Positions 4,044 through 46,175 of a stretch of 64,000 nt of DNA are shown here, in pieces; positions within the stretch are counted from its first letter, which is position 1; each line of letters starts with the position of its first letter. The notes under the pieces are model-generated. The model ran no database searches. It was not told where the DNA came from and saw only the letters and a program-made list of their open reading frames with translations. Source of the stretch: Clostridia bacterium (lineage in GTDB: Bacteria; Bacillota; Clostridia; Christensenellales; Borkfalkiaceae); NCBI GenBank assembly GCA_017398825.1, contig JAFQEV010000012.1, positions 1-64,000 on the forward strand, given 5' to 3'. The position numbers and the translations under genes were made by a program.

Positions 4044-4073
4044 AAAAAAGTGAGGCTTCCGCCTCACTTTTTT
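4044..4073 (-). terminator. Bidirectional terminator at the ilvE stop
   Basis: The stem GTGAGGC-TTCC-GCCTCAC is flanked by A and T runs on both sides. It overlaps the last bases of the aminotransferase gene on the minus strand. Confidence 0.85.
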
Positions 4074-5133
4074 AAATCTTATAAATCCAACCGAAACTAT
4101 CCTCAACCCTACCCCATTGAATACCAGTTAAGGTATCGTAAAGCATTTGAGTTACTTCGCCGATTTTTCCACCGGATACGGTGTATTTTTCACCCTCGTA
4201 CATAAGTTCGCCGATAGGAGATACAACGGCTGCAGTACCGCAACCGAAAGCCTCTTCGAGTTTACCAGTCTTCATAGCATCTAAAAGCTCGTCAACGGAT
4301 AAAAGCCTTTCTTCAACGGTAAAGCCCTTGCTCTTTAACACTTCGATACAGCTCATTCTGGTAATACCCGGAAGAATTGAACCGGTGAGCTTGGGGGTTA
4401 CAATCTTGCCGTCAATTTTGAACATAACGTTCATAGCGCCAACTTCTTCGATGTATTTTCTCTCAACACCGTCAAGCCACAATACTTGAGAATAACCCTT
4501 ATCCTCAGCGCGCTTACCTGCCCTCGTGGACGCAGCGTAGTTACCACCGCACTTAGCGTAACCCGTGCCACCGCGAACGGCTCTTACGTCTTCACTCTCT
4601 ATCATAATTTTAACGGGATTAATACCCTCTTTATAATAACTGCCAACGGGAGATGCAATGATTACGAATTCCGCGTTGTGTACCGAGTGAACACCTAAAG
4701 TTTCATCGTTACCGAACATAAACGGTCTTAAGTAGAGGGAAGTGCCTGCACTAGAAGGCGTCCACTCCTGTTCAACCTCTACAAACTTGGTGAGAAGTTC
4801 AAACGCCATATCCTCGGGGATAGTGGGAAGGCAAAGCCTTTCAGCCGAACGATTAAGTCTTCTAACGTTCTCCATGGGTCTGAACATTTGAACGCCACCG
4901 TCCTCTCTTCTATAAGCCTTTAAGCCCTCGAAAATTTCAGCGCCGTAGTGAAGTACGGTGCTTGCAGGGTGGATAGATAAGTTCGCAAACGGAACTATTC
5001 TCGCGTTGTGCCAACCCTTTTCAGCCGACCAAGTCATCATAGCCATATGGTCGGAAAAATATTTGCCAAAACCCAAAACGTTGTCTTGAGGCTTTACTTT
5101 TTTATCAGCAGTTTTAACTATTTTAATCTCCAT
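4072..5133 (-). CDS. ilvE: Branched-chain amino acid aminotransferase
   Basis: This 353-residue fold-type IV PLP enzyme is the usual length for the long (mammalian-like) branched-chain aminotransferase family. Family blocks include the early ILHYGAEIFEGLKAYR region (residues about 61-75), LYLRPFMFG near 125 and the PLP-lysine region ending YAKCGGNYAAS near 185, with a GCGTAAVVSPI block near 300. It interconverts Val, Ile and Leu with their 2-oxoacids using glutamate/2-oxoglutarate. The start lies inside the end of the gamma-subunit gene (11-nt overlap), so it is the last gene of the ferredoxin oxidoreductase operon. That supports branched-chain 2-oxoacids as the oxidoreductase substrates. Confidence 0.93.
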   Translation of the reverse strand: MEIKIVKTADKKVKPQDNVLGFGKYFSDHMAMMTWSAEKGWHNARIVPFANLSIHPASTVLHYGAEIFEGLKAYRREDGGVQMFRPMENVRRLNRSAERLCLPTIPEDMAFELLTKFVEVEQEWTPSSAGTSLYLRPFMFGNDETLGVHSVHNAEFVIIASPVGSYYKEGINPVKIMIESEDVRAVRGGTGYAKCGGNYAASTRAGKRAEDKGYSQVLWLDGVERKYIEEVGAMNVMFKIDGKIVTPKLTGSILPGITRMSCIEVLKSKGFTVEERLLSVDELLDAMKTGKLEEAFGCGTAAVVSPIGELMYEGEKYTVSGGKIGEVTQMLYDTLTGIQWGRVEDSFGWIYKI

Positions 5134-5662
5134 AATTTGCTCCTATTTCCATTGCTTTCTTGTTGACGTCAAGCATATCAGCATGCTTAGCGGAAATTAC
5201 CTTTTTAAGCGTTGCGTCAATCGTAGCATCATCGTATTCACCGGTTACTTTTAAAAGTTTACCAACGATAATCATGTTTGCGAGCGTAGGACAGTTGTTT
5301 TCGCTTGCCAAACGGGTTGCAGGAAGATAAATAACGTTAACGTCAGTCCTTTCAACCTTTCTTTCAATCAAGGTGCTATCTAAAATGATAGTACCGCCAG
5401 CCTTTACAGTCCCCTCGAACTTATCGAGAGAGGGAAGGTTCATTGCAACTAAAACGTCCGTTTTATCAATGATGGGAGAGCCGATACTCTCATCGCTTAT
5501 AATTACCGAACAGCTTGCCGTGCCACCGCGCATTTCAGGGCCGTAGGAGGGAAGCCAGCTTACGTTTTTATCTTCGGTCAATCCCTTATACGCTAAGAAT
5601 TTACCCGAGAAAAGTATGCCCTGTCCGCCAAAGCCGGAAAATAAATATTTCGTCGTTTTCAT
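5123..5662 (-). CDS. 2-oxoacid:ferredoxin oxidoreductase, gamma subunit
   Basis: This is the 179-residue gamma subunit of a 2-oxoacid:ferredoxin oxidoreductase, with the [12 protein letters not shown] motif at the N-terminus and the [10 protein letters not shown] motif near residue 50. This subunit helps bind CoA. I chose the ATG at 5662, not the longer frame opening at 5683, because AGGAG sits directly upstream and this places the start next to the beta-subunit stop (5664). It is translationally coupled to beta and overlaps ilvE downstream. Confidence 0.9.
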
Positions 5663-5663
5663 A

Positions 5664-6416
5664 TTACTTATTCTCCTTTGCACTTCTGTCTTTATAAACG
5701 CCTAAGGGATAATAAGGTATCATTTTTTCGTCAACCCACTTGAGCGCGTCCTTAGGAGTCATACCCCAGTTAGTAGGACAAGTAGAAAGAACTTCTACAA
5801 GTGAAAAGCCTTTCTTGTCAATTTGGTTTTGGAAGGCTTTTTTGATTGCCTTGTTAGCGTTTCTAACAGCTTTTACGCTGTTTACGATAACCCTTTCAAG
5901 ATATTCAGGACCGTCAAGCGTTGCAAGCATTTCGCACACTCTTACGGGGTAACCGCAAGCGTTTACATCTCTACCGTAGGGAGAGGTTTGAGTTACCTGA
6001 CCAGGAAGAGAGGTGGGTGCCATTTGACCGCCCGTCATACCATAAATTGCGTTGTTTATAAAGATAATCGTGATATTTTCGTTTCTCGCTGCGGAGTGAA
6101 CGGTTTCAGCCATACCGATTGACGCCAAGTCACCGTCACCTTGATAGGTGAAAACGATGTGCTCGTCGGGATTTGCCCTCTTTACGCCGGTTGCTACCGC
6201 AGGCGCTCTACCGTGAGCGGCCTCTATCATATCGCAGTTGAAATAGTTATACGCCATAACCGAACAGCCAACGGGCGCAATACCGATTGTTCTACCCTCA
6301 ATGCCAAGCTCGTCAATAACCTCGGCAACTAAGCGGTGAACTATACCGTGAGTACAGCCGGGGCAATAGTGCATTGAAATATCAGCAAGTGACTTAGGTT
6401 TATCAAATACTACCAT
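5664..6416 (-). CDS. 2-oxoacid:ferredoxin oxidoreductase, beta (TPP) subunit
   Basis: This 250-residue thiamine-diphosphate subunit has [12 protein letters not shown] near residue 18, the TPP/Mg motif GDGDLASIG near 95 with the conserved [12 protein letters not shown] block, and TSPYGRD. It carries out decarboxylation (or, in reverse, reductive carboxylation) of the 2-oxoacid with electrons moving to or from ferredoxin. The Cys residues near the N-terminus are of the kind that bind the proximal 4Fe-4S cluster in this family. Only 3 nt separate it from alpha upstream and 1 nt from gamma downstream. Confidence 0.92.
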
Positions 6417-6419
6417 CTC

Positions 6420-7478
6420 TTATTCCCCCTTTGCATACTTTTCGATTTCAGCAAGAATTTGCTCGGTTGACGGTATCATACCGCCTGCGCGGTTACACAA
6501 AGTAACGGGTACTTTGCAGGAAACCGCAAGCTTAACGTCTTCAATCATTTGACCCATTGAAAGTTCTACGCATACGATATGCTTAACTTTCTCAGCCATT
6601 TTTTCAAACGGCTTTTTGGGGAAAGGCCATACCGTAATAGGACGGATAAGACCTACCTTTATACCCTTCTTTCTCGCCTCGTCAACGGCGTTTTTGGTAA
6701 CTCTTGACGCAATGCCGTATGCAGTAACCAAAATATCCGCATCCTCGGTTTTATATTCCTCGTACATAGCCTCGTTTTCCTCAACGAGCTTGTATCTTTC
6801 AAATCTTTTAAAGTTGAACTTTTCAAGCTCTTCGGGAATAAGCGATAAGCTGTTTACGATATTGTGCTTTCTCTGCATTTTAGTGCCGTTAGTTGCCCAA
6901 GGCTTTTCGGGTGCGGGCGCAACGTCGAAATCAAGTTCAACGGGCTCCATCATTTGACCCATAGTACCGTCGGCAAGTATCATTGCAGGCATTCTGTACT
7001 TATCGGCAAGCTCAAAACCCTTTACCGTTAAGGACGCCATTTCTTGAACGCTACCCGGAGCGAGTACTATCAAGTGGAAGTCACCGTGACCGCCACCCTT
7101 AGTAGCTTGGAAATAGTCGGACTGGCTGGGTTGAATACCGCCAAGACCAGGACCGCCACGCTGAACGTTTATGATAACAGCGGGAAGGTCAGCACCTGCC
7201 AAGTAGGAAATACCCTCACTCTTTAAGGAAATTCCCGGGCTTGAGGAGCTTGTCATTACCCTATAGCCAGCGGCGGAAACGCCGTAAACCATATTGATTG
7301 CCGCGATTTCACTCTCCGCTTGTAAGAAAGTACCGCCTATTTTAGGCATACGCTTTGCCATGTATGCAGCGATTTCAGTTTGCGGAGTAATGGGATAGCC
7401 GAAATAGTGCATACAACCTGCTTTGATTGCAGCCTCGGCGATTGCCTCGTTACCTTTCATTAAAACTTTATTTGCCAT
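6420..7478 (-). CDS. vorB: 2-oxoacid:ferredoxin oxidoreductase, alpha subunit (VorB-like)
   Basis: This 352-residue protein has the pyrimidine-binding fold of the alpha subunit: GYPITPQTEIAAYM near residue 27, AESEIAAINMVYGVSAAG near 55, the TSSSSPGISLKSEGI block near 75, and NVQRGGPGLGG near 105. The overall pattern matches the family commonly annotated as 3-methyl-2-oxobutanoate (2-ketoisovalerate) oxidoreductase. The related 2-oxoglutarate enzyme (KorA) is the main alternative. The aminotransferase at the operon end and the branched-chain T-boxes upstream favour the branched-chain assignment. Confidence 0.88.
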   Translation of the reverse strand: MANKVLMKGNEAIAEAAIKAGCMHYFGYPITPQTEIAAYMAKRMPKIGGTFLQAESEIAAINMVYGVSAAGYRVMTSSSSPGISLKSEGISYLAGADLPAVIINVQRGGPGLGGIQPSQSDYFQATKGGGHGDFHLIVLAPGSVQEMASLTVKGFELADKYRMPAMILADGTMGQMMEPVELDFDVAPAPEKPWATNGTKMQRKHNIVNSLSLIPEELEKFNFKRFERYKLVEENEAMYEEYKTEDADILVTAYGIASRVTKNAVDEARKKGIKVGLIRPITVWPFPKKPFEKMAEKVKHIVCVELSMGQMIEDVKLAVSCKVPVTLCNRAGGMIPSTEQILAEIEKYAKGE

Positions 7479-7493: not shown

Positions 7494-7700
7494 TTACTTT
7501 TCTACTTTGATTATGCAGTCGGGGCACATCGTTGCACAGAAAGCGCAAGCGATACAGTCAGCCTCTCTGACAGCCTCTACGGGCTTATGCCCTTTCTTAT
7601 TGATTTTGTTTGGCGAAAGTTCCAAAACTTTTTTGGGACAAACGTCAACGCAAAGACCACAGCCCTTGCAGTTATCAACGTTAATTGTAAGTTTTGCCAT
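7494..7700 (-). CDS. 2x[4Fe-4S] ferredoxin subunit of the oxidoreductase
   Basis: This 68-residue ferredoxin has two CxxCxxCxxxCP motifs: CKGCGLCVDVCPKK near residue 10, and CIACAFCATMCPDC near 49. It is the delta subunit or dedicated electron carrier of the oxidoreductase and lies directly upstream of the alpha gene. It can donate or accept low-potential electrons, which matters for whichever direction the enzyme runs. Confidence 0.93.
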   Translation of the reverse strand: MAKLTINVDNCKGCGLCVDVCPKKVLELSPNKINKKGHKPVEAVREADCIACAFCATMCPDCIIKVEK

Positions 7701-7712: not shown

Positions 7713-8375
7713 TTATATCTTCGCTTGCAAATCAAGCGGGTAAAGATTTTTTATCTTGCCTTTTAGTTCGCCGTAAAACTCCCTTTTAACAGTAGTTAGA
7801 ACGACGGGGATTTCCATTGCTTTAGCAATCTCTTCAGCATAGGAAAGAGAACTTAAGATATCCTCTTTTGTTGTAAATTCACCAAGGTTTGAGTTGTTGA
7901 TTACCCCCGTGAATTTAAGTTTACCCGCCTCCTCGATTTCCCTTGCTACCGTAACGGTTGTTTCAAGGTCGGGAGTTAACGGGCGGAAACGATTGACGAC
8001 TAGTAACATATCGTAATCGTTTTCTTCCTTTATCTTAGGCGTTAACCTGCCGAGTGCCAAAGCACCGCGGTCGTCACCGCCGAGGTCGACTATCATTTTG
8101 TACGACCTATCGTCAGTAATTGCGTACATCTCTTGAGGGAGGGCTGGAATATCTACGTTAGTGCCAGCGTACTCGGAAGAGATTAAGCGTATTCCGTTTT
8201 TCTTAAACTCTAAAATGCTATCTTTAGTTCTAAAATAGGGATTTACGATATCAAGGTCGGCAACGGCTACTTTATCGAATTCTTTTTTAAGGTCGATTGA
8301 TAGGTTAACGGCAATATTAGTTTTGCCACTACCGTAGTGCCCTGATATAATCGTTATTCGCTTTAAATTTTTCAT
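7713..8375 (-). CDS. MinD/ParA-like P-loop ATPase, first gene of the VOR operon
   Basis: This 220-residue P-loop protein has a Walker A motif GHYGSGKTNIAVNL (residues about 12-25), a DLDIVNPYFR switch near 41 and a VDLGGDDRG segment near 95. It resembles the CobQ/MinD/ParA nucleotide-binding group that includes cluster-assembly and maturation ATPases. It is 12 nt upstream of the ferredoxin gene and co-directional, so it may serve the oxidoreductase, for example in cluster loading, but that is inference. No ribosome binding site precedes the ATG; a TTGATA-18-TATTAA promoter ends 9 nt before it. I recognise the fold, not the function. Confidence 0.78.
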   Translation of the reverse strand: MKNLKRITIISGHYGSGKTNIAVNLSIDLKKEFDKVAVADLDIVNPYFRTKDSILEFKKNGIRLISSEYAGTNVDIPALPQEMYAITDDRSYKMIVDLGGDDRGALALGRLTPKIKEENDYDMLLVVNRFRPLTPDLETTVTVAREIEEAGKLKFTGVINNSNLGEFTTKEDILSSLSYAEEIAKAMEIPVVLTTVKREFYGELKGKIKNLYPLDLQAKI

Positions 8376-8450: not shown

Positions 8451-8710
8451 CTAAGGCGTTGGTTTGCGAGAAACGAGTTAGAAACGAGTTAGGCGAGGCA
8501 CAAGATTTTTTAACGGCGAAATAGACCTTTTTGGTCATCGAGATGTTAAAAAGTCGCAGTAACGACGCATAACGAAGTTTATAACTTGTTTCGTGAGAAA
8601 TGAGTTAGAAGCAAGCAAGACAAGGCTCGCAAAATTTGAGCGGGTGCAATAGACCTTGTTGGTCATTGCAGTCGCGCGAGTTTTGCAGAAACGCAGTATT
8701 GCGACGCTTA
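8451..8710. repeat. Dispersed structured repeat, copies R2 and R3
   Basis: Two tandem units fill this gap. R2 has outer arms GATTTTTTAAC (8504-8514) and GTTAAAAAGTC (8545-8555), pairing with one wobble, and an inner GACC/GGTC. R3 has outer arms at 8629-8642 and 8673-8686 (pairing with two wobbles and about one mismatch) and an inner TGCAAT (8645-8650) / ATTGCA (8665-8670). The flanks GAGTTAGGCGAGGC and GCAGTAACGACGCATAACG are shared with the other copies. The R3 edge runs into the stop codon of the ligase gene at 8708. Confidence 0.75.
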
Positions 8711-10990
8711 TAACTTATTTCTTTGGATTTTGCCACTTATAGTCTTGGGAAGTTCATCCTTGAACACTACTATTCGAGGATATTTGTAGGGAGCGGTGTG
8801 ATCTTTTACATACTTTTGAATTTCTTTCTTGAGTTCATCGGAGGGGGTCGTTCCCTTAGTTAAAACTATGCTTGCTTTAACTACTTGACCGCGAACTTCG
8901 TCAGGCTCGGCGGATACACCGCATTCTAATACGTAGGGAAGTTCCATTATAACGCTTTCAATCTCGAAAGGTCCGATGCGGTAGCCACTTGACTTGATAA
9001 CGTCGTCAACACGGCCAACGTACCAGAAGAACCCGTCCTCATCGCGCCAAGCGGTATCACCGGTGTGATAATAACCGTCGTGCCAAACCTCTTTGGTCTT
9101 TTCCTCATCGCGATAATAACCTTTGAATAAACCACAGGGAGCACCGTCAGCTACTCTAACTACGATTTCGCCCGTTTCGCCTACCTCTACCGACCTACCG
9201 TCACTATCAACGATATCAACGTCGTAAATAGGTGCAGGTTTGCCCATTGAGCCTATCTTGTGCGGAGCACCGGTCATATTGCCGATAATCATAGTGCTTT
9301 CCGTTTGACCAAAGCCTTCCATAATTTGAAGGCCGGTAATCTTTTCAAATTGACGGTACACCTCGGGGTTTAAAGCCTCGCCAGCAGTAGTCATGTGCTT
9401 GATTGAGGATAAATCGTATTTGGAAATATCTTCCTTTATGAGCATTCTAAGCATTGTGGGAGGTGCACAGAAGGTAGTAATTTGATGCTTTGCAAACATG
9501 GGGAGAATTTCACTCGCGTCAAAGCGATCAAAGTCGTAAACGAATATAGCTGCCTCGCAAAGCCATTGACCGTATAACTTTCCCCACATCGCCTTTGCCC
9601 AACCGGTATCGGAAATGGTAAAGTGCAAGCCGTTCGGGTCAACGTTGTGCCAGTATTTAGCCGTGTGGAAATGCCCTAACGGATAGGTGTGAGAGTGAGC
9701 GGCAATCTTGGGATAGCCGGTAGTGCCGGAAGTAAAGAACATAAGCATTAAGTCTTCACCGCAAGCGCTGTCCTCAGTTCTTTCAAAATGAGTGGAGAAA
9801 AGCTTGTACTCCTCGTCAAAGCTGTGCCAGCCTTCGCGAGTGCCGTTAACGGTAATCTTCGTGGTAACGCTCGGGCAAGAGGAAAGGGTTTCTTCGATAC
9901 GAGCGGGAACACCGTCGTCTACAGTAGATATAACCGCGGAAACGCCAGCAGCGTTGAAACGATATTCAAAATCGTGGGGCTGGAGTTGATTAGTTGCAGG
10001 TATTCCTATTGCGCCGAGTTTGTTGAGCGCAAGCATAGAAAACCAGTATTGATAGTGGCGCTTTAATACGAGTAATACTCTATCGCCTTTCTTAATGCCG
10101 AGCGATTTGAAATAGTTTGCCGCACGGTTGCTTTCTTTCTTGATATCTTTGAAAGTAAATCTTCTCTCGGTCTTATCCTTAGAGATATGGAGCATTGCAA
10201 GCTTGTCGGGGTCTTTTTCGGCAATCTTGTCCATTACGTCAAAGGCGAAATTGAACTTCTCGTGATTTTTGAAAGTGATTTTTGTGGGAGTGCCGTTCTC
10301 GTTGCGAATAACGTCAACGTAGTTTTTGTAAATTCTCGGTTTCTTTCCGTCGTCAATGAGCTTAGATTTGCTCTCGATAATCTTGCTCTCTTTAAGCTCG
10401 GGGATAGGCTCGCCCGTCGGGTTTAATACGATAGCGTAGAAGATACAATCTTTTCCACCAACCGCTCTTAAGCCGTGGGGGGCTTCGGAATTATAGTAAA
10501 TACTGTCACCAGGATTTAATACAACCTTGTGATTGCCAACCTGAACGAGTAAGTTACCGTCAACGATAATATCGCATTCCTGCCCGTCGTGCGTGGTGAG
10601 CTCTAAAGGTTTATCCTGCTCGGCCTCAGAGTATTTGCTAACGACGTATAGCGGCTCTGCAATTCTCGACCTAAAGGAACTTGCTAAGTTATAGTAAGTC
10701 ATACCGTGAGCGTTGCCTACGTTTTGACCGTTGCCAGCTCTCGTAACCGTAAAGGCTTTAAGCTTGGGGCTGTGACCTTCAATTATATCGGTAACGTCAA
10801 CCTTAAGCGCGTTTGCACAGCGATAGATAAATGCGAAGTTTAAGTCGCTTTTACCCTCCTCACAGTTTACGTATTCCTCTTCGGAAACACCCGTTTTGAA
10901 AGCCATATCGGAAATCGAAAGGTTTTCTATTAAACGGAGTTCTTTAATTCTATTTGCTATCTCTTGAATTTTAATAGTAAGTTGTTCCAT
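8708..10990 (-). CDS. HTH-cupin-acyl-CoA ligase fusion (Val T-box-controlled paralog)
   Basis: This 760-residue protein has three parts. An XRE-type helix-turn-helix covers about residues 8-68, a cupin about 115-190, and an AMP-dependent acyl-CoA synthetase about 240-760. Ligase motifs seen are the P-loop FFTSGTTGYPK near 425, GFGQTES near 555, YHTGDTAWRDEDG near 640, the hinge VDDVIKSSGYRIGP near 660, and the terminal catalytic Lys in PKTISGKIQ. It should join a carboxylic acid to CoA with ATP going to AMP. The acid is not readable from sequence; I infer isobutyrate or a similar branched acid from the Val-type T-box and the neighbouring oxidoreductase and aminotransferase. The HTH-cupin head may sense the acid or regulate transcription. 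An AAAGGG ribosome binding site precedes the start. Confidence 0.88.
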   Translation of the reverse strand: MEQLTIKIQEIANRIKELRLIENLSISDMAFKTGVSEEEYVNCEEGKSDLNFAFIYRCANALKVDVTDIIEGHSPKLKAFTVTRAGNGQNVGNAHGMTYYNLASSFRSRIAEPLYVVSKYSEAEQDKPLELTTHDGQECDIIVDGNLLVQVGNHKVVLNPGDSIYYNSEAPHGLRAVGGKDCIFYAIVLNPTGEPIPELKESKIIESKSKLIDDGKKPRIYKNYVDVIRNENGTPTKITFKNHEKFNFAFDVMDKIAEKDPDKLAMLHISKDKTERRFTFKDIKKESNRAANYFKSLGIKKGDRVLLVLKRHYQYWFSMLALNKLGAIGIPATNQLQPHDFEYRFNAAGVSAVISTVDDGVPARIEETLSSCPSVTTKITVNGTREGWHSFDEEYKLFSTHFERTEDSACGEDLMLMFFTSGTTGYPKIAAHSHTYPLGHFHTAKYWHNVDPNGLHFTISDTGWAKAMWGKLYGQWLCEAAIFVYDFDRFDASEILPMFAKHQITTFCAPPTMLRMLIKEDISKYDLSSIKHMTTAGEALNPEVYRQFEKITGLQIMEGFGQTESTMIIGNMTGAPHKIGSMGKPAPIYDVDIVDSDGRSVEVGETGEIVVRVADGAPCGLFKGYYRDEEKTKEVWHDGYYHTGDTAWRDEDGFFWYVGRVDDVIKSSGYRIGPFEIESVIMELPYVLECGVSAEPDEVRGQVVKASIVLTKGTTPSDELKKEIQKYVKDHTAPYKYPRIVVFKDELPKTISGKIQRNKL

Positions 10991-11013: not shown

Positions 11014-11290
11014 TAAAAAAACCCGCCCCATAGTTTTAGTAAACTTTGAGACGAGTTTTATCCCGCGGTACCACTCAATTTGTAAGCAATAAGCCTACCA
11101 CTTTAGAATCTAACAATTCCTATTCGTTAACGCAGAAATCACGGAGAGGTTCTACTCGGTTTAACTTTCTTCCTCTCGGCTCGGAAACTACAACCCTATA
11201 TCCACTCGCTACGGCTCGCACCAAACGCCGTTCTCTGTAAACGAGCTACGAATACAAGGACTTTTCGTCATTGCCTTTTAATTTAATTAT
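11014..11290 (-). promoter_or_regulatory. T-box riboswitch, candidate Val specifier
   Basis: On the minus strand the T-box core AGTGGTACCGCGG (11075-11063) is followed by a terminator whose arms, at 11057-11047 and 11030-11020, pair through several G-U pairs and lead into a T run. The ligase ATG is 23 nt beyond. The triplet ten bases before the stem I end GAGC is GTA (11191-11189), a Val codon. A 48-bp block (about 11098-11145) is identical to one in the leader at 15.7 kb, showing that the leader was duplicated together with its gene. Uncharged tRNA-Val would promote read-through. Confidence 0.9.
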
Positions 11291-11295
11291 ATTAA

Positions 11296-11323
11296 ATTTA
11301 CCACTACTTTAAAATATTGTCAA
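11296..11323 (-). promoter_or_regulatory. Candidate promoter of the Val T-box leader
   Basis: On the minus strand TTGACA (11323-11318) is followed 17 nt later by TAAATT, a weak -10; an AATATAAT sequence lies a little further downstream. The remaining 11324-11435 gap holds nothing else I can support. Confidence 0.5.
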
Positions 11324-11435: not shown

Positions 11436-12857
11436 TTATACGCGGTATTCTTTCTTTCCACCGTGCCCACCGAAGATACTCCACTCTCCGCCACTTAACT
11501 TTTTAATAAACTCGGCGCGCTCTAAAGCACAAAGGTTCTTATCAGTGTCAACCGAAGTCATTAAGATAGGCGCGTATTTGTTGTAATTTGCTTGATTTTC
11601 GGTGAGGCCGTGAACGTTTATAAAAACGTCACCTGTAAAAGCGATTTTATGCGTTTGTTCAATTAAGATTATCTCTCCGCTAAGATGCCCGCCTTTACCT
11701 TCGTAAACTTCAAAATTAAGCTCGCCAACAGTAAAATCTCCTATGCGTTCGAGGGGAAATTCTAAGTTGGATTTATTCCAAGAGGGGCGAACTTTATCCT
11801 TTTCAACCGCCTTGTACTCGGTTAAAATTTTGCAAATATTGATATAAGGTTTATGCAAAACGTTACTCTCTCTAAACCCCATCGAATTATCAGCCTCAGA
11901 AAATAAGCACTCCGCCGTTTTTTGACTTGCTATAACTTGGTCAAACTCGCTGAGTAAACCCGCGTGGTCTACGTCTGCGTGAGTGAGAAGTATCTTTTCG
12001 TTTTCAAAATCAGGAATTAAGGTCTTGAAAAGTTTAAGCATCTCTTTTTTGTAACACGCGTACCCGGAATCAACGAAAATTCTTTCTCCAAGACTTTCGA
12101 TAATCGCCGTATTGCTACCACAATCGGGTTCTATCAACGTTATCGACGTGTTTTTTGTTATGGCGTGTTTAGTTATTCTTGGCTTAAAGTTTTCACCTTT
12201 ACTCTTTGCTAAAAGTTCAGCAAATCTGCTGATACTATCAAACGTTTTATACGGGGAAAGACCCGTTTCGTCAAGCGTTTGCATGGCAAGATTAACGTTT
12301 ACGAGTAAATCTTCTTTTCTTTGAGGATCTAATGCCATCGTCTTTACGAGCCCGTCAACGTAAGAATTGTAAAATAAGCTGTTATCGAAAACCCTTTCTG
12401 TGTTGTTGTAATTAATAATTCTAACTTCGCACAGCTTTCGCGCCTGCACCAAAAAATCATCTAATATAGAGGGGTCGTTAACGTATAAGCCCATTTTGAA
12501 AAACTGATATTTGCTACCGTTCTCTTGAGAACTTATGTACGAGATGTTAAGGCTGTAATTGTTGATAAGTTCTAAAACTGCAGTTACACTACCCGGGCAA
12601 TCTTCCAAACGGAATTCAAGCAAAACTATTTTGCTGTTTTCTTGTTCGTTTGAAAGATAACCTATTCCCTTGAGCATTTCGGTTGCTTTTTCAAGTTGAG
12701 ATTGCTCTCCTTCAACGTCAATAAACAAGGTGTGGGAGTCAACCGCTTTGTTGTAACTTACTCTGGTTATGTTTACGCCGAGTTTAGAAAAACATTTGCT
12801 AGCTTTTAAGAACGAACCTATATGATTGGGCATATTAGTAACAAAAGTTTTTTTCAT
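11436..12857 (-). CDS. ACT-ACT-metallo-beta-lactamase protein
   Basis: This 473-residue protein begins with two ACT-like amino-acid-binding domains, about residues 1-70 (TNMPNHIGSFLKASKCF) and 77-150 (RLEDCPGSVTAVLELI). A linker follows, then a metallo-beta-lactamase fold from about 225. The metal motif is THADVDHAG near residue 293, with GKGGHLSGE near 393 and FTGDVFINVHG near 415; the fold supplies a dinuclear metal hydrolase site. I do not know the substrate. A thioester is plausible given the acyl-CoA enzymes on both sides, with the ACT domains sensing an amino acid. It lies between the two T-box ligases on the same strand. No good ribosome binding site precedes the start. Confidence 0.8.
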   Translation of the reverse strand: MKKTFVTNMPNHIGSFLKASKCFSKLGVNITRVSYNKAVDSHTLFIDVEGEQSQLEKATEMLKGIGYLSNEQENSKIVLLEFRLEDCPGSVTAVLELINNYSLNISYISSQENGSKYQFFKMGLYVNDPSILDDFLVQARKLCEVRIINYNNTERVFDNSLFYNSYVDGLVKTMALDPQRKEDLLVNVNLAMQTLDETGLSPYKTFDSISRFAELLAKSKGENFKPRITKHAITKNTSITLIEPDCGSNTAIIESLGERIFVDSGYACYKKEMLKLFKTLIPDFENEKILLTHADVDHAGLLSEFDQVIASQKTAECLFSEADNSMGFRESNVLHKPYINICKILTEYKAVEKDKVRPSWNKSNLEFPLERIGDFTVGELNFEVYEGKGGHLSGEIILIEQTHKIAFTGDVFINVHGLTENQANYNKYAPILMTSVDTDKNLCALERAEFIKKLSGGEWSIFGGHGGKKEYRV

Positions 12858-12910
12858 AATGCGAAAAATAATACAAATTAAGTTTCAGTTTCTACGCAGT
12901 ATTGCAACGC

Positions 12911-13300
12911 TTATAACTTGTTTCGTGAGAAATGAGTTAGAAACGAGTTAGGCGAGGCTCGCAAAATTTGAGCGGGTGCAATAGACCTTGTTGGTCATTG
13001 CAGTCGCGCGAGTTTTGCAGAAACGCAGTATTGCGACGCCTATGCCGACTTGTATAAGGCGTTAGTTTGGGTATTAGACAAGGCGTGCGAGCATTTGCGA
13101 TAGGAGGGACTTTTGTACACGAGTGAGCAAAGCACAGCACAACGCAGTATTGCGACGCCTATGCCGACTTTAATAAGGCGTTAGTTTGCGAGAAACGAGT
13201 TAGAAACGAGTTAGACGAGGCACAAGATTTTTTAACGGCGAGATAGACCTTTTTGGTCATCGAGATGTTAAAAAGTCGCAGTAACAAAGTATAACGAAGT
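12911..13300. repeat. Dispersed structured repeat, copies R4-R6
   Basis: Three tandem units separate the ACT-MBL gene from the second ligase. R4 (12911-13050) is almost identical to R3. R5 (13055-13170) is a more diverged unit. R6 (13171-13300) is almost identical to R2, with GATTTTTTAAC/GTTAAAAAGTC arms. Each unit is bounded by GGCGTTAG-type left flanks and CGCAGTATTGCGACGC or GCAGTAAC right flanks. R6 runs directly into the stop codon of the ligase at 13301. Confidence 0.75.
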
Positions 13301-15568
13301 TTATAACTTGTTTCTCTGGATTTTGCCACTTATAGTCTTGGGCAACTCATCTCTAAATACAACTACACGGGGGTACTTGTAGGGAGCGGTGTGGTCTTTT
13401 ACGTACTTTTGAATTTCTTTCTTGAGTTCTTCGGAGGGGGTTGTTCCCTTAGTTAAAACTATGCTTGCTTTGACCACTTGACCGCGAACCTCATCGGGAA
13501 CGGCGGATACACCGCACTCTAATACGTAGGGAAGTTCCATTATAACGCTTTCAATCTCGAAAGGTCCGATGCGGTAGCCACTTGACTTGATAACGTCGTC
13601 AACACGGCCAACGTACCAAAAATATCCGTCCTCATCGCGCCAAGCGGTATCACCGGTGTGGTAAACACCGTCGTGCCAAGCCTCGTTAGTTTTAGTTTCG
13701 TCAAGATAGTACTCTTTGAATAAACCGCAAGGAACTTCCTTGTCGGTATGAATTACGATTTCGCCAACCTCACCTGCAGGGAGGGAATTGCCGTCCGCAT
13801 CGACAACGTCAACGTCAAATTGCGGAGAGGCTTTACCCATCGCACCGATTTTGGGAGTTGTGCCGTAAAGATTTGCTATAGCTAAGGTCGTTTCAGTTTG
13901 ACCAAAGCCCTCCATTATTTCAAGCCCGGTTGCGTCTTTAAACTGCTTAAACACCTCGGGGTTTAACGCCTCGCCGGCAGTAGTCATGTGATGGATAGAG
14001 GATAAATCGAACTTGGAAAGGTCGCCTCTTATCAACATTCTGAGCATCGTAGGAGGAGCGCAGAAGGTGGTGATATTGTACTTTGCAAACATGGGAAGTA
14101 TGTCGTTTTCGTCAAACTTATCAAAGTCGTAAACGAACACAGCGCCCTCGCAAAGCCATTGACCGTAAAGTTTGCCCCAGAGGGATTTGCCCCAGCCGGT
14201 ATCGGAAATAGTTAAGTGTAAACCGTCACGCTCACAGCAATGCCAGTATTTTGCCGTTACGAAATGGCCGAGCGCGTAAGTGTGCTTGTGCGCCGCCATT
14301 TTGGGATTGCCGGTAGTTCCAGAAGTGAAGAACATTAAAGCGGTTTCATCTCCGCAAGACGCGCCCTCCGATCTCTCGTACTTACCCGAGAATAAGGGGT
14401 ATTCTTTATCGAAATCGTGCCAACCGTCCTTAGCTCCTCCAACCATTACTAAATGCTCGACTTGAGGGCATTTTTTAGCGGCGCTTTGAGCGTACTCAAA
14501 GGTGTCGCCATCGGCGGTACATACGATTGCCTTAACTCCTGCGGAGTTATATCTATATTCGAAATCGTGCTCTTTAAGCTGATTAGTTGCAGGAATTGCA
14601 ACTGCGCCGATCTTGTGAAGTGCAACCATTGCAAACCAGAATTGATAATGCCTTTTTAAAACGAGCATAACCTTATCGCCACGCTTGATGCCTAAGGAGG
14701 TAAAGTAGTTGGCAACCCTGTTGCTTTCCGTCTTTATATCCTTAAAGGTAAAACGGCGCTCGTTCTTGTGTTTATCGAGGTGGAGCATTGCAAGTTTATC
14801 GGGATATTTTTTAGCGATAACGTCAACCACGTCAAAGCCGAAGTTAAAGGTATCGGTATTTTTAAACTTAACGTCTAAAAGCCTACCGTCACCGTCCTCA
14901 ACGACGTCAACGAACTTCTCGCAAACGAGGCTCTCGCTCTTTTTAGCAGCCATAACGCTCTTTCTAACGACGGTTTCCTCCGTATCGTCACCAGACATTA
15001 CCACCGCACAGAACACACAGTCCTCTCCGTCAACGGCAATCATTCCGTGAGGGGTGGAAGAGTTATAATAAATACTGTCACCCTCGGATAAAACTTCAAC
15101 GTGATCGCCTATTTGAACTTTGAGCTTACCGCTCAACACGAGGTCGAATTCTTGACCGCTGTGCGTAGTTAAGTGAATGGGCTTGTTTTGCTGAGATGCG
15201 GAATACTCGTACTTAACGTAATATGGCTCGGCAAGTTTGTTTTTAAACTTAGGAGCAAGGTTCGCTATATTTATACCGTCCTCTTTCGCCGTTTCCTGAC
15301 CTTTGCCTTTTCTCGTTACGGTGTAGGAAGAAAGCTTTGCACTCCTACCCTCTAAAAGTTCCGTCATTTCAACGCCGAAAGCAAGGGCGCACTTGTGGAT
15401 AAATGAGAAAGGAATATCTACTTTTCCGCTCTCGTACGTAATGTAGCGCTCTTCTGTAACGTCTGTTTTTTCAGCCATCGAGTATACGGAAAATCCCATA
15501 ATTTCACGCAACTCCTTAATTCTCGTTGCAATCTCTGATAACTGATTAAAAGTGTTGTTGCTGTTCAT
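13301..15568 (-). CDS. HTH-cupin-acyl-CoA ligase fusion (Ile T-box-controlled paralog)
   Basis: This 755-residue paralog of the ligase at 8708-10990 has the same order: HTH about residues 10-70, cupin about 120-195, ligase about 245-755. Motifs include FFTSGTTGNPK, GFGQTET, YHTGDTAWRDEDG, DVIKSSGYRIGP and the terminal PKTISGKIQ. Residues about 655-755 are nearly identical to the paralog, with a stretch of about 100 bp identical in DNA, while the HTH and cupin regions have drifted. This suggests a shared catalytic C-terminus and different sensing. The start has a strong AGGAGG site. By analogy with the Ile-type leader it may activate 2-methylbutyrate; the substrate is inferred. Confidence 0.88.
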   Translation of the reverse strand: MNSNNTFNQLSEIATRIKELREIMGFSVYSMAEKTDVTEERYITYESGKVDIPFSFIHKCALAFGVEMTELLEGRSAKLSSYTVTRKGKGQETAKEDGINIANLAPKFKNKLAEPYYVKYEYSASQQNKPIHLTTHSGQEFDLVLSGKLKVQIGDHVEVLSEGDSIYYNSSTPHGMIAVDGEDCVFCAVVMSGDDTEETVVRKSVMAAKKSESLVCEKFVDVVEDGDGRLLDVKFKNTDTFNFGFDVVDVIAKKYPDKLAMLHLDKHKNERRFTFKDIKTESNRVANYFTSLGIKRGDKVMLVLKRHYQFWFAMVALHKIGAVAIPATNQLKEHDFEYRYNSAGVKAIVCTADGDTFEYAQSAAKKCPQVEHLVMVGGAKDGWHDFDKEYPLFSGKYERSEGASCGDETALMFFTSGTTGNPKMAAHKHTYALGHFVTAKYWHCCERDGLHLTISDTGWGKSLWGKLYGQWLCEGAVFVYDFDKFDENDILPMFAKYNITTFCAPPTMLRMLIRGDLSKFDLSSIHHMTTAGEALNPEVFKQFKDATGLEIMEGFGQTETTLAIANLYGTTPKIGAMGKASPQFDVDVVDADGNSLPAGEVGEIVIHTDKEVPCGLFKEYYLDETKTNEAWHDGVYHTGDTAWRDEDGYFWYVGRVDDVIKSSGYRIGPFEIESVIMELPYVLECGVSAVPDEVRGQVVKASIVLTKGTTPSEELKKEIQKYVKDHTAPYKYPRVVVFRDELPKTISGKIQRNKL

Positions 15569-15663: not shown

Positions 15664-15925
15664 TAAAAAAATTCGTCTCAAAAAATACTTTGAGACGAAT
15701 GTTGTTACATACGCGGTACCACTCAAATTGCAATCTTGCGACTGCCACTTTAGAATCTAACAATTCCTATTCGTTAACGCAGAAATCACGGAAAGCGTCT
15801 ACTATAATTTCGGGCTTTCGACTCGGAAGGGATAGGTTATTAAACGCTCGTTGTTGACTCACACCACCCGTCAACTCTCTGTAAACTCCCGTTTAGCCTT
15901 TCTTCGTCACAGTCTTTGTGGGTTA
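15664..15925 (-). promoter_or_regulatory. T-box riboswitch, candidate Ile specifier
   Basis: On the minus strand the core AGTGGTACCGCG (15723-15712) precedes a perfect terminator stem (15700-15691 with 15680-15671) and a T run. The AGAGAG motif and a GTTGAC/GTCAAC hairpin mark stem I. The triplet ten bases before its GAGT end is ATC (15833-15831), an Ile codon. The block identical to the Val leader covers about 15746-15793, but the specifier regions differ, as expected if the duplicated cassette changed tRNA specificity. Confidence 0.9.
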
Positions 15926-15957
15926 TTAAATTAAGGCGATTATACACCCGTGAAAAA

Positions 15958-16770
15958 CTACTTGTCAACTGTTTTTTCAAACTTTTTCAAAATTTTTTTC
16001 GGAGGTATTCCGTATGCTTTTTTGAATTTGTATGAAAAATAATTACTATCGTTAAACCCGCAGGCAAACGCAACCTGGTTGACGGAGCGCCCCGGCTCGT
16101 TCTTTAACATGTACTCCGCCTTTTGCAAGCGGTAAAGAGTTAAGTACTCGGAAAAGCCAAAGCCCGTTTCCTTTTTAAACGTGCGCGAGAGGTGCTCGGG
16201 GCTTACCGAAAACGCCTCCGCCACCCCGGAAAGCGTTACCTCGCCGTGATAATTTTCTTGAATGTATTTTACCGCCCTTTCGATAAACGCGCTACCGGAC
16301 GGCGTTTCGCTTTGCTCTTTAGCGTTTCTAACGAGCAAGAAGATAAGCTCGTAGGTTAAGCCTTTGAGGGCGTCCACCGAATACTCGTCACTCTTTCTAT
16401 ACTCGAAATCGATTTTCTTCATTACCCTCTCGCACTCGGCGGTAACTTGAGAACGGCGGAATACGTGAGGGAGGGAATTGAGTTCACCCCTAACGCTTTT
16501 AGGAACAAAACGCTCCGAGCAGTTTATAAGCCAGCGGTCGTGAAATTCGGTATCGTAGGTCGTTTTGTGAATAATTCCGCTCGGAATAAACACTAAATCG
16601 CCCGTTTCCACCCTGTAGGACTTATCGTCGATAAAGTAATTACAACTACCCCTCTTCATATAATATATTTCAATTATAGAATGATAGTGACTTGACGACT
16701 TGTTTCCCTTTATTTTGGACGCCTGCTGAAAATAATAATCGGTGACCGTTAAAACGCTTTTTTCTTCCAT
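15958..16770 (-). CDS. AraC-family regulator of the uronate operon
   Basis: This protein of about 270 residues has an N-terminal cupin sensor (HYHSIIEIYYMKRG near residue 33; GDLVFIPSG near 60) and a C-terminal double helix-turn-helix. The HTH region includes TLSGVAEAFSVSPEHLSRTFKKETG near 195, with NQVAFACGFNDSNYFSYKFKKAYG ending the second motif. It is divergent from uxaB-uxaA-uxaC and probably activates that operon in response to a uronate. I place the start at 16770: a TTGATT-17-TATACT promoter ends 8 nt before that ATG and there is no ribosome binding site, so the mRNA is probably leaderless. Confidence 0.88.
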   Translation of the reverse strand: MEEKSVLTVTDYYFQQASKIKGNKSSSHYHSIIEIYYMKRGSCNYFIDDKSYRVETGDLVFIPSGIIHKTTYDTEFHDRWLINCSERFVPKSVRGELNSLPHVFRRSQVTAECERVMKKIDFEYRKSDEYSVDALKGLTYELIFLLVRNAKEQSETPSGSAFIERAVKYIQENYHGEVTLSGVAEAFSVSPEHLSRTFKKETGFGFSEYLTLYRLQKAEYMLKNEPGRSVNQVAFACGFNDSNYFSYKFKKAYGIPPKKILKKFEKTVDK

Positions 16771-16778
16771 ATAGGTTA

Positions 16779-16807
16779 AGTATAACAAGTAATATCAAAA
16801 AAATCAA
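16779..16807 (-). promoter_or_regulatory. Leaderless-type promoter of the AraC gene
   Basis: On the minus strand, TTGATT (16807-16802), a 17-bp spacer and TATACT (16784-16779) end 8 nt before the ATG at 16770. A TATAAT facing the other way at 16866-16871 probably belongs to uxaB. Confidence 0.7.
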
Positions 16808-16908
16808 GATTTTTACACTAAACTGTCAATGAAATTAAGGAAATATATATTGTTTTGACTTATGATATAATCGTAAATATGGCAATTATGCCTATAAGGA
16901 GAATAATT

Positions 16909-18198
16909 ATGAATTTCGAAAAGGTAAATAGAACTGAAAAGATTATTCAGTTTGGCGAAGGCGGTTTTTTACGCGGTTTCGTTGACTGGATGTTGCAAAA
17001 ACTCAACGATAACGGCAGTTTTGAGGGCAACGTTGTTGTAGTTCAACCCATTGAACAAGGTATGTGCGATATGCTCGAAAAGCAAAACTGCGTTTACACT
17101 CACTTAATCCGCGGTGTTGAGGGCGTTGAAAAATCTATTATCAACGTTATTTCAAGAACGGTTAAGCCCTACGCTGACTGGAACGCTTACCTCGCGCTTG
17201 CTGAAAACCCCGATTTTAGATTCGTGGTATCTAACACCACCGAGTCGGGTATCGTTTTCTCTGAAGAGGATAAGATTACCGACGTTCCGCCCAAGACCTT
17301 CCCTGCAAAGCTCACCATTTTATTAAAGAAGAGATTTGATTTAGGGCTTAAGGGCTTTATATTCTTGCCTTGCGAACTTATAGATAGAAATGGCGACAAT
17401 CTTAAAAAGTGCGTTCTTGCTTACGCTGACCTTTGGAACTTAGGCGATGAGTTCAAGGCGTGGATTGAAAAGGAAAACGTATTCTGCAACACTTTAGTTG
17501 ACCGCATCAACACGGGCTATCCTCGCGGTGAAGAGCTTAACCTTGGGTATGAAGACAATATGGTAAATACCTCCGAGTACTTCCACCTTTGGGTTATCGA
17601 GTGCGATTACGACCTCGAAAAAGAACTTCCGTTCAAGTCCGCAGGTCTTAACGTTATAGTTACTAAGGATAAGCTTGCTATGTACAGAACGAGAAAGGTT
17701 AGAATTTTAAACGGTGCACACACCTCGCTCGTTCCCTACGCGTTACTCGAGGGATACGACACGGTTAAGTCTTGTATCGATAGCGAAAAGATGCTCACTC
17801 ATATTCGCGCTTGCGTTTTCGATGAAATTATTCCTACTTTAGACCTTCCTAAAGACGAACTCGTTGAATATGCCGAAGGCGTTATCGGAAGATTTGCAAA
17901 CCCCTATATCAAGCACTATCTCTCCTCTATCGCTCTCAACTCGGTATCAAAATTCAAAGTTAGAGTTCTTCCCTCTATTCTCGAGTACATCAAGCGCTAC
18001 AACAAGATGCCCGAAACGCTCTTGTTCTCCTTTGCAAAGCTCATTGACTTTTACAAAACCGATATGACTAACGACGATAAGGACGTTGTTGAATTTATGA
18101 AATCTAACGGCGTAAAGGAAATCCTTTCCAACGATAAGCTTTGGGGCGAGGATCTTTCCTTCTTGACCGCTGAGGTAGAAAAGTATGTTAATAAATAA
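16909..18198 (+). CDS. uxaB: Tagaturonate reductase (altronate oxidoreductase)
   Basis: This 429-residue member of the polyol dehydrogenase family has an N-terminal Rossmann segment with FGEGGFLRGFVDWML near residue 15 and the catalytic-domain motif RKVRILNGAHTSL near 265. UxaB reduces tagaturonate to altronate with NADH. The choice of UxaB over fructuronate reductase rests on the N-terminal block and the neighbouring altronate dehydratase. I use the ATG at 16909, not an upstream in-frame one, because AAGGAGA lies just before it. It overlaps uxaA by 14 nt. Confidence 0.9.
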   Translation: MNFEKVNRTEKIIQFGEGGFLRGFVDWMLQKLNDNGSFEGNVVVVQPIEQGMCDMLEKQNCVYTHLIRGVEGVEKSIINVISRTVKPYADWNAYLALAENPDFRFVVSNTTESGIVFSEEDKITDVPPKTFPAKLTILLKKRFDLGLKGFIFLPCELIDRNGDNLKKCVLAYADLWNLGDEFKAWIEKENVFCNTLVDRINTGYPRGEELNLGYEDNMVNTSEYFHLWVIECDYDLEKELPFKSAGLNVIVTKDKLAMYRTRKVRILNGAHTSLVPYALLEGYDTVKSCIDSEKMLTHIRACVFDEIIPTLDLPKDELVEYAEGVIGRFANPYIKHYLSSIALNSVSKFKVRVLPSILEYIKRYNKMPETLLFSFAKLIDFYKTDMTNDDKDVVEFMKSNGVKEILSNDKLWGEDLSFLTAEVEKYVNK

Positions 18199-19555
18199 GC
18201 TTGACAACGTTGAGGTCAACCTTTCAGACGGACATAAATACGCTCTTAGAGATATTAAAAAGGGCGAGGATATCATAAAGTACGGCAACCCTATCGGGCA
18301 CGCTACTGAGGATATCGCTAAAGGCGCTCACGTTCATACTCACAACGTAAAAACCAACCTATCGGGCAATATTTCCTATAAATACCAGCCCAAGTTTTAC
18401 GATACTCAAAAGGAAGATACCTCTCGCACCTTTATGGGCTACGTTAGAAAAAACGGCGACGTTGGTATTAGAAACGAGGTTTGGATTGTAAACACCGTAG
18501 GTTGCGTTAACAAGGTAGCGGAAAAAATCGCTCAAAAAACGGGGGCGAGATTTTTCCCTCACCCGTTCGGCTGTTCTCAGCTTGGTGACGACCAAAAGAT
18601 TACTCAAATTATTTTAAAGGGTATGGTAAACCACCCCAACGCTGCAGGCGTTCTCGTTTTGGGGCTTGGCTGTGAAAACAACAACATTGACCTTTTTAAA
18701 ACCGTGCTCGGTTCTTGGGACGATGAGAGAGTAAAATTCTTAAACACTCAAGACGTAGCTGACGACGTTGCAGAGGGCGTGAAAATAGTAAAACAACTCC
18801 AAGCCTATGCCGATACTTTTAAGCGCCAACCCGTACCCCTTTCAAAGCTCAAGCTCGGTCTTAAGTGCGGTGGTAGTGACGGTTATAGCGGTATTACCGC
18901 AAACCCGTTAGTTGGTAGGCTTTCGGATAAGCTCATTGCAATGGGCGGTAGTTGCGTTCTCACGGAAGTTCCCGAAATGTTCGGCGCTGAGCACCTTTTA
19001 ATGCAGAGGTGCGAAAGCGAAGAGGTGTTTGATAAAACCGTTAAACTCATTAACGATTTTAAAGATTACTACACTCGCCACAACCAAGTTATATACGAAA
19101 ACCCCTCGCCCGGCAATAAAAAAGGCGGTATCACCACCTTGGAAGAAAAGTCGCTCGGCTGTATTCAAAAGGGCGGTCTTTCAAAGGTAGTTGACGTTTT
19201 AGATTACGGCGACGTTCTTTCTAAGAACGGCTTATCTCTACTCAACGGCCCGGGTAACGATATCGTTGCGATAACTAACCTTATGGCAGCTGGCGTTCAC
19301 GTAATTTTATTTACAACGGGTAGAGGCACTCCCGTAGGCGCACCCGTTCCCACGGTAAAAATTGCAACTAATCACAACTTGGCAGTAAACAAATCTAACT
19401 GGATTGATTTCGACGCAAGCCCCGTGCTTGACGGCAACCCCTTAACCGACGAGCTTTTAGAGTTCGTTATCGAGATTGCCGAGGGAAAGGAAACGAAAAA
19501 CGAAATTAACGACTATCGTGAAATATCAATATTTAAGGACGGTGTAACTTTATGA
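18185..19555 (+). CDS. uxaA: Altronate dehydratase
   Basis: This 456-residue protein is full length for UxaA. It has the SAF-like N-terminal domain (GDH and HTHN motifs, residues about 1-75) and the larger catalytic domain. The latter includes the blocks GLGCENNNIDLF near 160, KCGGSDGYSGITANP near 230, TEVPEMFGAEHLL near 260 and TTGRGTPVGAPVPTVKI near 380. It dehydrates D-altronate to 2-keto-3-deoxygluconate, with iron as the usual cofactor. It overlaps uxaB upstream and shares ATGA with uxaC downstream, so the three genes are translationally coupled. Confidence 0.93.
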   Translation: MLINKLDNVEVNLSDGHKYALRDIKKGEDIIKYGNPIGHATEDIAKGAHVHTHNVKTNLSGNISYKYQPKFYDTQKEDTSRTFMGYVRKNGDVGIRNEVWIVNTVGCVNKVAEKIAQKTGARFFPHPFGCSQLGDDQKITQIILKGMVNHPNAAGVLVLGLGCENNNIDLFKTVLGSWDDERVKFLNTQDVADDVAEGVKIVKQLQAYADTFKRQPVPLSKLKLGLKCGGSDGYSGITANPLVGRLSDKLIAMGGSCVLTEVPEMFGAEHLLMQRCESEEVFDKTVKLINDFKDYYTRHNQVIYENPSPGNKKGGITTLEEKSLGCIQKGGLSKVVDVLDYGDVLSKNGLSLLNGPGNDIVAITNLMAAGVHVILFTTGRGTPVGAPVPTVKIATNHNLAVNKSNWIDFDASPVLDGNPLTDELLEFVIEIAEGKETKNEINDYREISIFKDGVTL

Positions 19556-46013: not shown

Positions 46014-46175
46014 AAGACGTTAGTTGCAAATAACGGAATAAACTCGTTTAAGACGTTAGAAACGAGTTAGGCAAGGCTCGACGGCAAGCCGTTGGGCGTA
46101 ATTGACCTACTCGGTCATTACGGTCACGGATTGACGGCAGTAACGATGCATAACGAAGTTTATAACGGATTAAAA
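46014..46175. repeat. Dispersed structured repeat, copy R7
   Basis: This copy has the same flanks as R1-R6 (GACGTTAG...GAGTTAGGCAAGGCTCG on the left, GCAGTAACGATGCATAACG on the right). Its own stem is new: inner GTAAT-T-GACC (46098-46107) pairs with GGTC-ATTAC (46113-46121), and outer CAAGCCGT (46085-46092) pairs with ACGGATTG (46126-46133) apart from one mismatch. It abuts the stop codon of the dehydratase gene on the minus strand. Confidence 0.72.

Follow-up and report, generated by a model that had tools for sequence, protein, structure and literature searches.

A gene between two acyl-CoA ligases

The window, the whole stretch of 64,000 nucleotides that we analysed, carries on its minus strand an open reading frame at 11436..12857 that starts with ATG and encodes a protein of 473 amino acids, an ACT-ACT-MBL protein that we call MBLACT. 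Read along the minus strand from 15568 to 4072, the order of genes is ligase 1, MBLACT, ligase 2, ATPase, ferredoxin, VorB, beta, gamma and BCAT. Ligase 1 (ACS1; 13301..15568) is by Pfam an HTH-cupin-AMP-dependent acyl-CoA ligase of 755 aa; ligase 2 (ACS2; 8708..10990) has 760 aa, and its head shares 46% identity with the one on ligase 1. The location of the gene between two acyl-CoA ligases, as proposed by an earlier sequence-only reading of this DNA, is therefore borne out. Downstream, and all on the same strand, lie a CbiA/ParA-type ATPase (7713..8375; Pfam), a ferredoxin-like subunit with two cysteine motifs, recognised by eye in the translation (7494..7700), VorB, a 3-methyl-2-oxobutanoate dehydrogenase subunit (6420..7478; NF005507 over cut-off), the beta (5664..6416) and gamma (5123..5683) subunits of a 2-oxoacid:ferredoxin oxidoreductase, both below cut-offs, and a branched-chain amino acid aminotransferase, BCAT (4072..5133; NF009897 over cut-off). 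An AraC-type regulator and uronate-degradation genes, named by eye, adjoin the module at 15958-20910.

The nearest NCBIfam model to both ligases is MbcS (NF047394), with scores of 440.6 and 452.7 bits (E 7.7e-132 and 1.6e-135) that fall below its cut-off of 850; the window ligases also differ from MbcS in their added HTH-cupin head. The S. aureus enzyme, a 2-methylbutyrate/isobutyrate CoA synthetase, activates both acids, according to the portion of PMC10026030 on which we draw. Ligase 1 is likely a 2-methylbutyrate-CoA ligase and ligase 2 likely an isobutyrate-CoA ligase, the substrates in both cases being putative. Ligases with an HTH and cupin head of their own are possible enzyme-regulator hybrids, and a match to this head in a sufficiently long open reading frame occurs in 81 of 391 genomes of the class.

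Searches of the genome to which the window belongs, which is 92% complete, yielded neither ilvC nor ilvD, while control searches matched in 14 of 14 genomes. Among 151 related genomes (this one included), ilvC scored over cut-off in 2 of the 36 that have a fused ligase vs 55 of the 115 that do not. The absence of ilvC and ilvD implies that the ligases, the oxidoreductase (VOR) and the transaminase are likely the route to isoleucine and valine in this organism. Most likely, then, the module rebuilds both amino acids from branched volatile acids, and the membership of MBLACT in a pathway, which the sequence-only reading had also proposed, can be made more specific: it belongs to a module of ligase, VOR and transaminase that serves branched-chain amino acids. 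Formation of isoleucine by reductive carboxylation of 2-methylbutyrate is in print, in a passage of PMC2812497 that cites Robinson and Allison 1969.

Two T-box leaders lie in the module. The first (15688..15919, minus strand) precedes ligase 1 and MBLACT and scores 98.6 bits against the Rfam model RF00230, whose gathering score is 93. Its specifier, from the covariance-model alignment and the pairing of stem I, is AUC, for isoleucine, and a perfect sigma-70-like promoter sequence by consensus scan only (TTGACA-18-TATAAT, 12/12) lies at 15939..15968 on the same strand. The second leader (11044..11280, minus strand) precedes ligase 2. Stem I pairing gives it a GUA specifier, for valine; its Rfam score of 92.1 bits (E 1.2e-19) is slightly below 93, and its counterpart at locus L016 passes at 97.4. 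A promoter-like site (TTGACA-17-TAAATT with TG, 10/12, consensus scan) is found at 11295..11323, again on the minus strand. A third leader, with a CUC (Leu) specifier, occupies 185-423 on the minus strand at the contig end, and its gene is off the contig.

Between ligase 1 and MBLACT is a gap of 443 nt (12858..13300, minus strand) that site scan and repeat search show to be filled by an interspersed repeat. Copies of this intergenic repeat lie at 12893-13260, 8471-8711 and 46055-46080, and 44 matches are listed in the genome. A consensus scan of the gap found no minus-strand promoter- or terminator-like match, so MBLACT is most simply the second gene of an isoleucine-controlled transcript. Uncharged tRNA-Ile is thus predicted to induce ligase 1 and MBLACT together. 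Control of branched-chain amino acid biosynthesis by T-boxes in Clostridia is in print, and the specifier matched the function of the gene in every case where the latter was established (both from the part of PMC2494555 used here). The leaders of the window share with those genes an Rfam T-box with an Ile or Val specifier, but they instead head acyl-CoA ligases and the ACT-ACT-MBL gene. PMC11477304 lists a further ACT protein behind a T-box, CD1564 of C. difficile.

The ACT pair and the metal site

MBLACT is a real, conserved and uncharacterised protein. Compared with its 87% identical homolog at L050 it is under purifying selection (dN 0.075, dS 1.11), and its AlphaFold model has a mean pLDDT of 81.3, with the MBL part mostly above 90. 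The architecture of two ACT domains joined to a metallo-beta-lactamase domain, as first read from the sequence, is upheld by Pfam matches across the family and by structure models. ACT domain 1 spans residues 1-70 (12648..12857, minus strand; PF01842 at 8-62 and PF22629 at 11-63, both sub-cut-off, and the model) and ACT domain 2 residues 74-150 (12408..12638, minus strand; PF13291 at 78-141, sub-cut-off, a PDB profile match and the fold). They are followed by a helical linker (residues 151-220; 12198..12407, minus strand), seen in the alignment and the model, in which F162, Y163, N189 and M192 are invariant among 14 aligned sequences, and by the MBL domain (residues 221-473; 11439..12197, minus strand). 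No NCBIfam model matched MBLACT above its cut-off, and a single-sequence search of the PDB returned nothing at E 1; profiles were needed for matches. The separate parts, ACT, MBL and T-box, are known kinds. Searches of an open-licence library gave no paper on a fusion of ACT and metallo-beta-lactamase domains; the single listing for this pair, PMC7285479, concerns an archaeal proteome, and two listings on T-boxes together with isobutyrate or 2-methylbutyrate seem from their titles to be unrelated.

For the ACT domains, PF01842 scores 21.4 bits with the whole window protein and 25.4 with its first 150 aa, vs a cut-off of 27. The same family matches all 22 members of an alignment (the window protein and homologs that are 32-69% identical in the two aligned parts), with a best E of 2.5e-13, and the homologs at L026 (40.6) and L027 (31.1) exceed the cut-off. 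A model of residues 1-155 alone (mean pLDDT 80.9) contains two ACT-type units. In the model, ACT2 superposes on the regulatory subunit of E. coli AHAS III with Z 11.7 and an rmsd of 1.5 A over 75 residues, a superposition that gives it the beta-alpha-beta-beta-alpha-beta fold of ACT domains; regulatory domains of Rel and threonine deaminase are also among its fold matches. Fold matches to ACT1 are few (2nyi, residues 1-151, Z 9.9, rmsd 7.2; 9qs7, residues 1-72, Z 10.3), which makes this the weaker test. By profile, ACT2 matches the ACT domain of Rel in the PDB (E 3.8e-7), and members of the alignment match ACT_AHAS_ss (17/22), ACT_4 (19/22) and Thr_dehydrat_C (11/22). The closest kin are thus ACT domains linked to branched-chain amino acids, those of the AHAS small subunit, Rel and threonine deaminase. 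G14 and N29 of ACT1 are invariant among the 22 members, and D86, G89 and N104 of ACT2 are conserved in at least 90% of them; positions such as these presumably line the ACT ligand site. We infer that the ACT pair binds isoleucine or another branched-chain amino acid. MBLACT shares the ACT2 fold and the ACT sequence families with IlvH/IlvN, Rel and IlvA, but differs from them in having a tandem ACT pair fused N-terminally to an MBL domain.

The likeness of ACT2 to the ACT domain of Rel, its nearest relative, bears on two other explanations. One is that MBLACT hydrolyses a signalling molecule such as an alarmone and, through its Rel-like ACT domains, resets a starvation signal when isoleucine returns. 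The frequent ACT_4 matches and the isoleucine T-box also speak for this, but the operon partners are metabolic, and we know of no MBL-fold alarmone hydrolase; we regard this explanation as highly improbable. The other is the feedback brake of the sequence-only reading, in which isoleucine would switch on a thioesterase that drains 2-methylbutyryl-CoA. Here the precedent from Rel points both ways: in the part of PMC7058999 on which we draw, binding of branched-chain amino acids is cited as inducing hydrolysis by R. capsulatus Rel, but hydrolysis by B. subtilis Rel was not stimulated by leucine.

The MBL domain matches Lactamase_B (PF00753) at E 4.4e-8, its 33.7 bits exceeding the cut-off of 22.7, and its fold resembles 50 listed MBL-fold entries with Z 17.3-18.9. 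The full set of metal ligands (motifs II-V) is present: H293, D295, D297, H298, H391, D410 and H465, all seven invariant in the 22 aligned members. The first four lie in the sequence HADVDH (residues 293-298; 11964..11981, minus strand), and the HxDxDH motif that had been taken as the mark of a metal hydrolase therefore holds throughout the alignment. The usual motif of hydrolases is HxHxDH; in the MBLACT family its second His is replaced by Asp. The domain is predicted to bind metal and to hydrolyse a substrate. With class B1 metallo-beta-lactamases and MBL-fold hydrolases (BcII, TTHA1429) it shares the fold, at Z 18-19, and keeps the ligand positions H, D, H, H, D/C and H, but differs in the motif and is only about 15% identical. 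The best matches in profile searches are B1 enzymes, and the NCBIfam models for B1 and class B give scores of 17.0 vs 450 and 17.1 vs 100, far below their cut-offs. With the whole model as query, TTHA1429, B1 lactamases and flavodiiron proteins all fall within the Z range of 17.3-18.9, a spread across several MBL types that leaves the fold search uninformative about the substrate.

The acidic residue in the motif raises the possibility that MBLACT is a carboxylate-rich di-iron protein of the same kind as ODP and flavodiiron proteins, which would sense or reduce O2 or NO, for example in protecting the oxygen-sensitive VOR, and would be tuned by the ACT domains. Flavodiiron proteins have Glu at this position, in HxExDH, and an H-x18-D spacing that is repeated in MBLACT between H391 and D410. 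Weak matches to the ODP family PF19583 occur in 14 of the 22 members, flavodiiron proteins appear in the fold list at Z 17.6-17.7, and at L145 the homolog lies near Hcp-like and CoA-disulfide-reductase-like genes (names by eye). Against this, the residue is Asp and not Glu in all 22 members, the MBL domain of the window scores 21.0 bits vs the 27.2 of the ODP gathering score, and Pfam found no flavodoxin or rubredoxin domain in the window protein, which has the ACT domains in addition. Moreover, the best profile matches are B1 metallo-beta-lactamases, MBL hydrolases outrank flavodiiron proteins in the fold list, and an isoleucine regulon offers no reason for a role in O2 or NO chemistry. A di-iron protein is very unlikely, and we continue to treat MBLACT as a hydrolase.

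T-box leaders and distribution in other genomes

We compared the window with 85 loci in other genomes, of which 80 were retained from at least 440 related stretches and five came from another search; tallies omit L016-L023, which duplicate records within L030-L072. A fused ligase lies upstream of MBLACT in the same operon in 28 of the 85, with the preceding gene ending at most 69 nt away in 24 of these, and 23 of the 28 have a T-box motif before the ligase. In 12 further loci a T-box motif lies within 750 nt of MBLACT itself. The remaining 45 have neither upstream, many of them on truncated contigs; upstream sequence reaches 3.4 kb or more in 56 loci, of which 26 are linked and 30 unlinked. 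One locus scored as having neither, L088, in which a spurious opposite reading frame breaks the chain of genes, is nevertheless among the 20 ligase leaders described below.

AUC was called as the specifier in all eight callable leaders directly before MBLACT and in all 20 before a ligase that precedes MBLACT. Leaders of ligases that follow MBLACT read AUC (4) or GUA (2), and those that head another gene CUC (8) or AUC (2); the caller thus also yields GUA and CUC, which argues against a bias towards AUC. The last group includes L039 and L105 (AUC) and L096 (CUC), where a short reading frame or a MaoC gene comes first, as well as L070 and L108, where a CUC leader heads an HMGL gene. T-box motifs without a call, among them L036, L040 (AUC-like by eye), the upstream motif of L046, L076 and L093, were excluded. 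The Rfam T-box model matches all nine leaders directly before MBLACT: five exceed the gathering score, three score 82.6-92.2 bits (E 2.4e-16 or below), and one, cut by the contig end, scores 36.4. In the Rfam alignments AUC occupies the specifier position in all eight that are complete. Runs at the gathering score gave no T-box for L019, L020, L021 and L023, despite the motif there; in E-value mode the leaders of L019 and L020 (the same as L037 and L038) score 82.6 and 92.2 vs 93.

The amino acid, which the sequence-only reading had left as valine, isoleucine or leucine, is thereby narrowed to isoleucine by most leaders. Leucine applies at three loci, where MBLACT belongs to a CUC-led transcript: L096, in the order MaoC-MBLACT-HMGL, and L070 and L108, in which HMGL comes first and MBLACT later. 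The gene can therefore also travel with a leucine operon. A link to vor genes was observed in few loci only, namely the window and L016/L050, and BCAT and the ATPase accompany MBLACT in L046.

Several other genes recur in these surroundings. A gene of the HMGL/LeuA_dimer cluster stands behind a CUC (Leu) T-box in L024, L052, L070, L071, L080 and L108. It is followed by a protein of about 820 aa; the one at L024 joins a xylose-isomerase-like barrel to an AMP ligase. A MaoC-like gene of about 140 aa recurs near MBLACT and the ligases in 13 loci (L096, L101, L104, L105, L070, L094 and others). A hisS-like gene, named by eye, follows MBLACT in L049, L060 and L061, with a T-box motif in L049 and L061 and none in L060. 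THF riboswitch aptamers that exceed the gathering score lie in the flanks of two loci (L031:8016-8107 and L033:8815-8906).

Across wider samples MBLACT, counted at E 1e-30 or below, occurs in 37 of 391 genomes of the class (at least four matches being partial: G200, G225, G416 in two pieces, and G422) and in 7 of 398 of the phylum, with the genome of the window counted in both; among the 151 relatives it occurs in 15, including that genome and one fragment. With a fused ligase defined by open-frame length only (at least 450 aa in the class list, at least about 470 aa elsewhere), the class sample has it in 29 of 37 carriers vs 52 of 354 non-carriers (Fisher 1.6e-15, shared ancestry ignored) and the relatives in 11 of 15 vs 25 of 136 (Fisher 2.5e-5, shared ancestry again ignored). 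A distribution unlinked to the ligases would have spoken against the pathway role first proposed, and in the class sample the two are tied. The partnership is looser than these figures alone suggest. Of the 36 ligase-bearing relatives only 11 carry MBLACT, in one case a fragment, implying that it is dispensable. In G067 (L029) all that follows ligase 1 is a remnant of 35 residues, with a stop 6 nt past ligase 1, and this row was left out of the locus tallies. Conversely, 12 of 42 carriers in the wider samples lack a fused ligase, which is accordingly no obligate partner, and 8 of these 12 have ilvC.

Among the genes closest to the distant homologs (L145-L159, 34-58% identity) there is no ligase. 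No T-box motif was found upstream of any of these 15, nor of the four at L025-L028, within the sequence available (at most 4 kb, and at most 600 nt for L027 and L028). Of the 15 genomes with distant homologs, 7 have ilvC and 5 a fused ligase elsewhere; in L156 and L158 the homolog follows a symporter-like gene, NSS-type by eye. From this patchy link to the ligase, and from distant homologs with neither ligase nor T-box, MBLACT is best seen as an accessory gene that was drawn into the isoleucine regulon in one large clade.

A proposed role in the isoleucine module

What is observed is the domain set, the invariant metal ligands, the isoleucine T-box, the linkage to the ligase and the absence of ilvC and ilvD. 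That MBLACT is a hydrolase of the isoleucine regulon that senses branched-chain amino acids is, in our judgement, probable; we hold this with slightly less confidence than before two further loci were seen to lie behind leucine leaders. Our explanation as a whole, to which we give a probability of about 0.4, is that MBLACT is an amino-acid-sensing metallo-hydrolase of a module that converts 2-methylbutyrate to isoleucine, and that it is induced by isoleucine starvation. Uncharged tRNA-Ile would open the T-box leader, and ligase 1 and MBLACT would be made together. Ligase 1 would form 2-methylbutyryl-CoA from scavenged 2-methylbutyrate, VOR would carboxylate it, and BCAT would then yield isoleucine. 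The ACT pair would bind isoleucine, or another branched-chain amino acid, and set the activity of the MBL domain, whose most likely chemistry would be the hydrolysis of an acyl thioester. Such hydrolysis may remove acyl-CoAs that are incorrect or in excess (propionyl, butyryl, isobutyryl), which a promiscuous ligase would make in a gut where short-chain acids abound. We put forward the thioesterase step only tentatively, and isoleucine binding, the thioester substrate and the direction of allostery are all conjectural parts of the scheme.

How does the feedback brake compare? In that scheme thioesterase and ligase would be produced side by side, allowing the cell to close the route immediately even though ligase protein is still present, and the linkage to ligase 1 would indeed ensure that a brake is present whenever the ligase is. 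However, the idea that MBLACT acts when the amino acid is plentiful is weakened by the isoleucine T-box, which implies synthesis when tRNA-Ile is uncharged and thus predicts it at isoleucine scarcity, also at loci where MBLACT alone follows the leader. What survives of the idea is a brake loaded in advance along with ligase 1, and the futile, ATP-burning cycle that it entails would be costly. Because MBLACT should be made when isoleucine is short, a pure brake for times of plenty is not our first choice, and we consider it decidedly unlikely; editing or overflow of the acyl-CoA pool, or hydrolysis on the supply side, fits better.

Supply-side hydrolysis would mean that MBLACT, under inhibition by isoleucine, cleaves an ester, amide or thioester conjugate and so frees a precursor of isoleucine (2-methylbutyrate or a 2-oxoacid) or the amino acid as such. 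The combination of T-box and ACT domains has the logic of feedback-inhibited biosynthetic enzymes in general, MBLACT is the first gene behind the T-box in nine loci, and the symporter gene before the distant pair at L156 and L158 would suit such a role. Yet there is no known conjugate or uptake system for MBLACT, and linked copies are more often found behind a ligase than alone. This, too, we think somewhat unlikely, and the acyl-CoA-editing hydrolase described above is the reading that we prefer. A bolder reading is that MBLACT represents a new class of metallo-hydrolase, gated by an amino acid and doubly controlled by isoleucine, which the T-box senses through the charging of tRNA and the ACT domains probably as the free amino acid, and that it serves as an on/off valve for an isoleucine route that scavenges volatile fatty acids, or for a starvation signal; we regard this as unlikely.

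Where the usual pathway to branched-chain amino acids is missing, gut bacteria can make them anew from branched volatile acids, a capacity that is relevant to the nutrition of ruminants. In the part of PMC2812497 on which we draw, such rebuilding is described for one methanogen. The T-box specifiers now predict which acid each ligase of the window uses, 2-methylbutyrate for the isoleucine-controlled and isobutyrate for the valine-controlled enzyme. They also tie an unnamed protein family, with at least 440 related stretches, to isoleucine, and so provide a concrete control point. If the ACT pair does gate the hydrolase, MBLACT would be a new coupling of an MBL enzyme to amino-acid status.
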